NCBI GenBank assembly: GCA_001516055.1
Contig: LOEZ01000061.1
Location: 62,001 to 126,000, forward strand
Direction of reading: 5' to 3'
DNA: 64,000 nucleotides
Source: Gracilibacter sp. BRH_c7a
Lineage (GTDB): Bacteria; Bacillota; Desulfitobacteriia; Desulfitobacteriales; Syntrophobotulaceae
Shown here: piece by piece, positions 61,137-62,413 of the stretch
Layout: the number at the start of each line of letters is the position of its first letter
How positions within the stretch are numbered: position 1 is the stretch's first letter
Notes under the pieces: generated by a model
Databases searched by the model: none
Seen by the model: only the letters and a program-made list of their open reading frames with translations
Told to the model about the DNA's origin: nothing
Program-made: the position numbers and the translations under genes

Positions 61137-61427
61137 CTATTTTAAAAATTTGTCAATAGCATCGTTTAATTTTCCAAGTACCTCTGTATCGTTTTCCTCA
61201 TAGGCATGTAGTAAACAGTGATTAATATGATCGCTGAGTATTATCTTTCCAGTACTGTTTATGGCTGAACGGACAGCAGATAATTGAATTAAGATATCGC
61301 TACAGTCAATATCATCATCAACCATACGTTTTATTCCCTCCATATGGCCAATGATTCTGGAAAGTCTATTAATGACACTTTTTTTATGGGGATGCTGATG
61401 AGAGTGGGTATGGTCAGCTGCTTTCAC
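61137..61427 (-). CDS. CsoR/RcnR-family metal-sensing repressor
   Basis: The 96-residue all-helical protein matches the DUF156/CsoR family: INRLSRIIGHMEGIKRMVDDDIDCSDILIQL and SDHINHCLLHAYE. A cysteine in DCSD and the HxxxC pair of DHINHC make the CHC metal set. A histidine-rich N-terminus (HTHSHQHPHKK) recalls nickel sensors of the InrS/RcnR kind. The start is GTG after AGGGGAG. It converges on cbiMNQO, so it may control it; copper sensing is the alternative. Confidence 0.85.
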   Translation of the reverse strand: MKAADHTHSHQHPHKKSVINRLSRIIGHMEGIKRMVDDDIDCSDILIQLSAVRSAINSTGKIILSDHINHCLLHAYEENDTEVLGKLNDAIDKFLK

Positions 61428-61792
61428 ATAAGACTCCCCTTCCCAAAAAATTAGTTATTATGTATATTATTTTATCATAAATAAAGAGATATAAAAAAGA
61501 ATTAAATTTCACAACTAACAAGTTGATAAGTTTTACTTTATCACGCAGTAAGCGTCCGTAAAAATTGGAACAACGGTCGCTAACTTCCTGATTGGTGCAA
61601 CTAAACCAACAAGTTGGTAAGTTTTACTTTATCACGCAGTAAGCGTCCGTAAAATTGGAACAACGGTCGCTAACTTCCTGATCGGTAAAACTAAACCAAC
61701 AAGTTGGTAAGTTTTACTTTATGTTTTGGGATTTAAGAGTTTGGTCAAACTATAAAAAAGAGATTAAAACTTGAGAGAAGTTGTAAAATAAA
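61428..61792. other. 365-base gap holding the tandem repeats
   Basis: No gene was found. It holds the tandem repeat described at 61515-61722. No good ywmB promoter was found in the remaining sequence. Confidence 0.6.
61515..61722. repeat. tandem 90-91 bp hairpin-forming repeat, 2.3 copies
   Basis: Copy 1 is 61515-61605 (91 bp), copy 2 is 61606-61695 (90 bp), and a 27 bp partial third copy is 61696-61722. The full copies differ by five substitutions and one A. Each unit contains an inner hairpin (61639-61650 with 61663-61674 in copy 2, 10 of 12 pairs), and outer arms TTGGTAAGTTTTAC (61614-61627) and GTAAAACTAAACCAA (61685-61699). CCAACAAGTTGG marks each unit start in copies 2 and 3. Confidence 0.88.
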
Positions 61793-62413
61793 ATGATTAA
61801 TAGAAGAAAACAGATTATTTGGGGATTAATACTAATCTTTCTGTTATCGCCTTCGCTTGTATTTGCTGAGCTATCTAAAATAAATAATAGTTCAAAGGAT
61901 TTCACACTGTTCTTAAATTCTGGAATAACTCATTGTGAAACCGCAACTGTTAAATACACTCTTTGGACGGATGATAGCAGTGAATTAGAAGTGATTTCTA
62001 AAATAACTCAGAACAGCCCCCTTGTATGGCAGAAGGAAGTAGTTAGTGATTTTACAGGGAAGAAAATTTACAAATATTTTTCAATAAATCGAGTGGATAG
62101 AAAAGGCGAAAAACTAATTTTTAGCCAGCTTGAATCTATTGAGCGACAGATAAAAGGAACAGGGATTCTTTTATATTTTTACCAACAGGTAGATGAAATA
62201 ATTGATATTTGGGATTATCTAAATCTGAATAAGCTAAGAGATAAACAAAAGACGCAAACAGATCAGTTGCTTTCTATAAATGGGTATAGTGATATAATTG
62301 GTGGAATAGTACAGTCCTCGCCATTCAATACCAATGTTCAGATTATTACGAATAACCAAAATAAGAAGGGCAAAAGTTTGATTGCTATACCTGCCTTACT
62401 TGACGAATTTTAA
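61793..62413 (+). CDS. YwmB-like secreted protein
   Basis: The 206-residue protein has a signal peptide (about 1-25, QIIWGLILIFLLSPSLVFA). The remainder shows no motif that I can name, but the order ywmB-murA-spoIID in Bacillus places YwmB-family proteins (DUF1779/TATA-box-like fold) exactly here. Function is unknown. The ribosome-binding site is weak (GAGAGAAG, 13 bases away). Confidence 0.6.
   Translation: MINRRKQIIWGLILIFLLSPSLVFAELSKINNSSKDFTLFLNSGITHCETATVKYTLWTDDSSELEVISKITQNSPLVWQKEVVSDFTGKKIYKYFSINRVDRKGEKLIFSQLESIERQIKGTGILLYFYQQVDEIIDIWDYLNLNKLRDKQKTQTDQLLSINGYSDIIGGIVQSSPFNTNVQIITNNQNKKGKSLIAIPALLDEF

Follow-up and report, generated by a model that had tools for sequence, protein, structure and literature searches.

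A tandem hairpin array in Gracilibacter sp. BRH_c7a as a probable site of a dispersed, gene-less mobile element bounded by TTTAT

The window analysed here, a stretch of 64,000 nucleotides from Gracilibacter sp. BRH_c7a (contig LOEZ01000061.1), holds a tandem array of hairpin-forming units. It lies between two divergent genes, one for a metal-sensitive repressor and one in the position of ywmB. This array is probably one place of a dispersed, gene-less and non-autonomous mobile element, which carries two sub-terminal imperfect hairpins and is bounded by TTTAT words. Observed are the dispersal of its copies, the fixed orientation of TTTAT, insertions that face empty sites, arrays whose units share a TTTAT, and compensatory changes in the stems across genera.

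Tandem Repeats Finder places the array at 61513-61722 (period 90, 2.3 copies, 95% matches) with a score of 378, the second-ranked array of the 64-kb window scoring 64. Unit-to-unit spacing is 91, then 90. A first-pass annotation made from the letters alone had described a tandem hairpin repeat of 90-91 bp, and score, spacings and fold (z -6.3, see below) all bear this out. Its count of two units and a partial third was right as to the tandem repeat and wrong as to phase. The borders of the element, set by aligning copies that stand alone, are TTTAT/CAC at the start and ACTTTAT/ at the end (slashes mark the borders), so that the unit reads TTTAT/C, hairpin B, hairpin A, ACTTTAT/. In this phase the locus consists of a truncated solo hairpin A and, behind it, two complete elements, each junction sharing a single TTTAT; the supposed partial third unit belongs to the last hairpin A, that of complete element 2, and corresponds to its right half, and the sharp stop seen before the flank is the element's right end. 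Elements 1 and 2 differ by 3 substitutions and 1 indel. The outer arms are indeed better kept in copy 2, as had been remarked: a GC-to-AA difference turns GTGCAACT and AGTTTTAC into a perfect 8-bp arm. The looped lower arm of hairpin A is the family norm. The parts of the array are:

61513..61541 (+): solo hairpin A remnant, a 5'-truncated right end, AACTAACAAGTTGATAAGTTTTACTTTAT, with a counterpart at the orthologous site of the same-genus genome
61537..61541 (+): TTTAT at the left border of element 1, serving as target/end word
61537..61632 (+): complete element 1, 96 bp, running from TTTAT/CACG through hairpin B and hairpin A to ACTTTAT
61540..61592 (+): hairpin B of element 1, ATCACGCAGTAAGCGTCCGT ... 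ACGGTCGCTAACTTCCTGAT; its mismatches are spaced and its tip varies
61594..61627 (+): hairpin A of element 1, GTGCAACTAAACCAACAAGTTGGTAAGTTTTAC, with a 2x2 loop in the lower arm
61628..61722 (+): complete element 2, 95 bp, having TTTAT 61628-61632 in common with element 1
61631..61682 (+): hairpin B of element 2
61684..61717 (+): hairpin A of element 2, GTAAAACTAAACCAACAAGTTGGTAAGTTTTAC, whose lower arm pairs perfectly over 8 bp
61718..61722 (+): TTTAT that closes the array on the right; the flank GTTTTGGGATTTAAGAG comes next and is similar at the orthologous site

Used as a query, the array finds 11 places in its own genome, counting itself; with a wider query there are 20. A covariance model built from 17 copies gives 26 matches there at E<1, some of them the opposite strand of the same copy. 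Among 60 relatives, the only other genome of the genus has 14 copies, one other genome of the family has 1 copy and one more distant genome a short match, the remaining 57 having none. The first-pass annotation had set a palindromic mobile repeat beside a simple local duplication, the latter to be expected if there were no other copies or homologs and relatives lacked a conserved structure. The opposite was found on both counts, and genome-wide copies rule out a simple local duplication; dispersed copies, relatives in other genera, three empty sites and arrays elsewhere all favour the mobile repeat. Some copies are old, since a hairpin-B copy between genes read as rpsB and tsf is common to both Gracilibacter genomes. 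Upstream of the gene read as tsf, each of the two genomes has a hairpin-B-only copy with its stem retained (L030 and L017), which may be old and may play a local role. Arrays also occur at the ends of two contigs of the own genome (G000:C77, L004; G000:C75, L009 and L016); both contigs stop inside arrays with an identical hairpin-A tip, which probably means that the assembly broke at a longer array.

Three insertions in the same-genus genome (L021, L025 and L031) are empty at the orthologous sites of the own genome. The empty site is one TTTATCA for L021, TCTAT for L025 and an AT-rich junction, less cleanly aligned, for L031; at these three sites, insertion was 3' of a short word and without further duplication. 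At the window locus itself, the same-genus ortholog holds only the solo-A remnant and no complete element. The remnant, present in both species, is therefore older than their split, and the two complete copies of the window are either later additions here or losses in the other species.

The ends of the element, TTTATCACG on the left and TTTCACTTTAT on the right, are not inverted repeats; direct TTTAT words bound it, always in the same orientation relative to the element. These ends bear on whether it could be a conventional miniature inverted-repeat transposable element (MITE), mobilised by a DDE transposase that duplicates a 5-bp target, TTTAT. Size, dispersal and absence of genes would suit such an element, and the bcr1-3 repeats have been termed MITE-like (PMC3446304). 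However, the lack of inverted-repeat ends argues against a DDE transposase, as does the non-palindromic TTTAT found in one orientation only, where a DDE element would be expected in both; this explanation is improbable.

The fold of the array is strong. As RNA, it reaches -63.5 kcal/mol against -39.5 +/- 3.8 in shuffles (z -6.3), and a single unit with the following hairpin gives z -8.1, with 0 shuffles as stable. Covariation was examined in a gapless alignment of the stem arms of 21 representatives, the control being the partner arm slid out of register. In this set 93.7% of cells are paired, a percentage favoured by the hand-picking of arms from folds; yet the double changes are too numerous to be explained by that choice, with both sides changed in 10 of the 15 stem pairs and 68 doubly changed cells versus 5-14 in the slid controls. 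The TAA of the internal loop, which is unpaired, is invariant in the left arm.

Such stems could suggest a selected RNA, or a cis-regulatory array serving one of the two flanking genes, and the strong fold (z -6 to -8), the compensatory stem changes and the location in a divergent intergenic region are all in line with this. Selection on one RNA strand would favour G.T over A.C departures from pairing. The two are equal (71 G.T vs 74 A.C, p=0.87, in 74 copies of five subfamilies), so neither RNA strand is favoured. Moreover, both complete units are absent from the same-genus ortholog, copies adjoin unrelated genes, and a search of Rfam gave no match at gathering score and, at E up to 1, none over an element. 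Since palindromes can stay complementary without selection on RNA, compensatory stems alone are no evidence for a regulatory RNA. A selected RNA, one of the options first proposed, is thus very unlikely: the conserved feature is a foldable strand, not an RNA. A scan for promoters and terminators found 3 promoter-like sites versus 1.8 expected, and no terminator. The flanking genes are:

61137..61427 (-): metal-sensitive repressor gene, PF02583 (E 5e-28)
61793..62413 (+): gene in the ywmB position, directly upstream of a gene read as murA

The first of these, correctly named a metal sensor in the first-pass annotation, adjoins a cobalt-uptake operon (CbiM). For the second, the name ywmB fits by position upstream of murA, and its protein has no Pfam match.

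Beyond the genus, the covariance model is positive in 29 of 398 Bacillota genomes, in 23 of 267 genera, with subfamilies that have different stems. Members occur in Gracilibacter, Gracilibacillus and Pseudalkalibacillus, including a complete copy in Gracilibacillus massiliensis, a bacillus. All follow a shared plan of TTTATC, a subfamily-specific B stem, a variable tip, the second B arm, a linker carrying GTTCAACTAA or a paired variant, hairpin A and AAGTTTCACTTTAT, over a length of about 95-250 bp (typically 95-170). Of the 12 positive genomes searched, 11 contain the 14-mer of the right end, with 131 occurrences in all against 2 for a reversed-pattern control. Head-to-tail arrays sharing a TTTAT are also found in genomes G213 and G154. 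Mini copies of about 53 bp, in which the B left arm is fused to the A right arm, arose separately in several genera (L141, L173, L175 and L180 in G250; L202 in G154; L145 in G180; L239, L243 and L244 in G410), and are most simply explained as deletions between short C-rich repeats of both tips.

Truncated copies were considered as a sign of SINE-like (short interspersed element) target-primed retrotransposition of a structured RNA. In G250, many copies are 5'-truncated with an intact right end (39 right vs 23 left ends), as that process would leave them. G213 shows the opposite (33 right ends, 44 left ends), and copies that keep the left end but are truncated on the 3' side are frequent. With the truncation excess running in opposite directions in the two genomes, retrotransposition was rejected as extremely unlikely.

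Several copies carry further palindromes. In the same-genus genome (L031, L035, L036 and L158) and at L014:1491-1720, a second palindromic repeat with GCCATGGATGGC (or CATCCATGG) in it takes the place of the hairpin-B tip or lengthens it. The nested GCCATGGATGGC tips have no match in Rfam; their AUGGAU loop is similar to the GGA-in-loop motif of CsrA targets. In G213, copies L286, L292, L218, L223, L226 and L228 have extra small palindromic modules nested in the tip or linker, namely CTTTGCACACAG...GAACAAGTTCG... and GGAAAGGG...CACACCTG.... A short TTTATC...CTTTAT element of the family is also present on plasmid pNY3A, filed under Klebsiella grimontii (L051:2990-3080), either through cross-phylum transfer or because the record is mislabelled. 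No match to the element was found in the viral contigs and phages searched.

How the element moves is suggested by its orientation, which tracks the replication fork in 47 of 63 copies (p=1.2e-4), the TTTATC strand being on the lagging-strand template. By genome, the fork-matching copies number 16/19 in G154, a closed genome whose skew flips at ~1.35 Mb, 17/23 in G250, 6/8 in G115 and 8/13 in Gracilibacter. An orientation that follows the fork suggests single-strand transposition of the IS200/IS605 kind. A trans-acting enzyme, for which a Y1/HUH transposase of IS200/IS605-RAYT type is the likeliest candidate, would act on the lagging-strand template and bind the hairpins of the element in single-stranded DNA; the element would be cut out at TTTAT, with a predicted circle junction of CACTTTAT/CAC, and re-inserted 3' of another TTTAT. 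Because the element itself ends in TTTAT, the right end of a resident copy would be a new target, giving rise to head-to-tail arrays. At the window locus, two copies were most likely added in this way behind an older solo hairpin A. The single-strand step is a candidate mechanism rated only better than even, as no transposase is tied to the element.

The same ends could instead be served by site-specific recombination: a tyrosine or serine recombinase would use folded sites and cross over at TTTAT as their core, as in integron cassettes, and arrays would form by integration at the core. TTTAT is fixed at both ends of the element and head-to-tail arrays share one TTTAT, both as this would require. 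On the other hand, the orientation bias with the replication fork (47/63) is unexpected for double-strand integration, and no recombinase gene lies inside or between the ends, though recombinases were not surveyed. Movement by a recombinase is rather unlikely on this evidence.

Several results weigh against a mobile element spread by single-strand transposition. Gene direction confounds orientation in G154, where most sampled stretches are nearly all leading-strand coding; among copies whose orientation gene direction cannot explain, 11/15 match the fork (p=0.12). The Gracilibacter copies alone (8/13) have no significant orientation bias. In G250, 14/16 full-length copies match the fork, a separation from the mini copies that was chosen post hoc. 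Insertion beside TTTAT is indistinguishable from a 5-bp TTTAT duplication. Regarding the enzyme, the four Y1 transposases of the own genome are excluded as partners, as their ends differ, and none of the Y1 genes inspected in other positive genomes is flanked by element ends. Six of the 29 positive genomes are without any Y1 match. Y1 genes are found in 23/29 positive vs 203/369 negative genomes (odds ratio 3.1, p=0.011), a modest enrichment that does not take genome size into account. Of 133 left ends, none has its right end at a gene-bearing distance, and these left ends and the Y1 genes inspected yielded no autonomous, tnpA-bearing relative that has the element's ends. The four Y1 transposase-like genes of the own genome (L052-L055) include one interrupted by stops, and three that match RAYT/TIRYT in size and lie near inverted repeats of their own (e.g. 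GGGACGGTTCTTTAC in L052).

By description, the nearest named relative is bcr1 of the Bacillus cereus group. It is about 155 bp long and forms a double hairpin; in the window family, a two-hairpin structure is conserved by compensatory change. The bcr1 repeats are intergenic, gene-less, MITE-like, present in high copy and conserved in secondary structure, and their mobility is linked to TTTAT, for which a mechanism resembling site-specific recombination has been proposed (PMC6542083, PMC3446304, PMC2267715). TTTAT words stand at the ends of the window family's elements too. The statement in the first-pass annotation that no named family fits was therefore too strong, as bcr1 shares the reported target word and the MITE-like character (PMC6542083, PMC3446304). 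In contrast, published descriptions confine bcr repeats to the B. cereus group, whereas the window family was found in 29 of the sampled Bacillota genomes, one of them of the Gracilibacter type. Searches of plasmids for a source of bcr1 gave no match from the B. cereus group.

IS200/IS605 elements insert 3' of a tetra- or pentanucleotide without duplicating the target; they lack terminal inverted repeats and depend on a hairpin at either end (PMC7290912); IS608 and ISDra2 target the lagging-strand template (PMC6006769). The window family resembles PATEs, which are ends-only derivatives of IS200/IS605 (PMC7290912), in being gene-less, in lacking inverted repeats and extra target duplication, and in having a sub-terminal hairpin per end, insertion beside a short word and, possibly, an orientation bias with the replication fork, which gene direction confounds. 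It differs from them in that no parental insertion sequence with its ends was found, in the strong divergence of stems between lineages and in its tens of copies per genome. REP/BIME/REPIN sequences, thought to be mobilised by the Y1 transposase RAYT (TnpA-REP; PMC6006769, PMC3733652), are likewise short, intergenic, multicopy palindromes with internal mismatches. However, the window family has no GTAG or CGTC at the hairpin foot, is made of two different hairpins in fixed order and not of inverted pairs, and no RAYT is flanked by its copies. Classical bacterial MITEs (RUP, NEMIS and ERIC) are also small, gene-less, dispersed and foldable, but they have terminal inverted repeats where the window family has direct TTTAT words.

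A wider reading, which we hold tentatively and at somewhat below an even chance, is that double-hairpin elements targeted to TTTAT would form one superfamily across the phylum, bcr1 being a local branch, and would spread as single-stranded DNA from the lagging-strand template through an unrecognised enzyme. Lineages would rewrite the stems while keeping the pairing pattern and the TAA internal loops, and arrays would grow as the element's own TTTAT end serves as a target. The same anatomy in 23 of 267 genera, together with the subfamilies, the empty sites and a possible replication bias, provides comparative material in which to seek the mover, and enough of it to test the single-strand model. 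For annotation, it is a caution that such arrays should not be labelled regulatory RNAs on compensatory stems alone.
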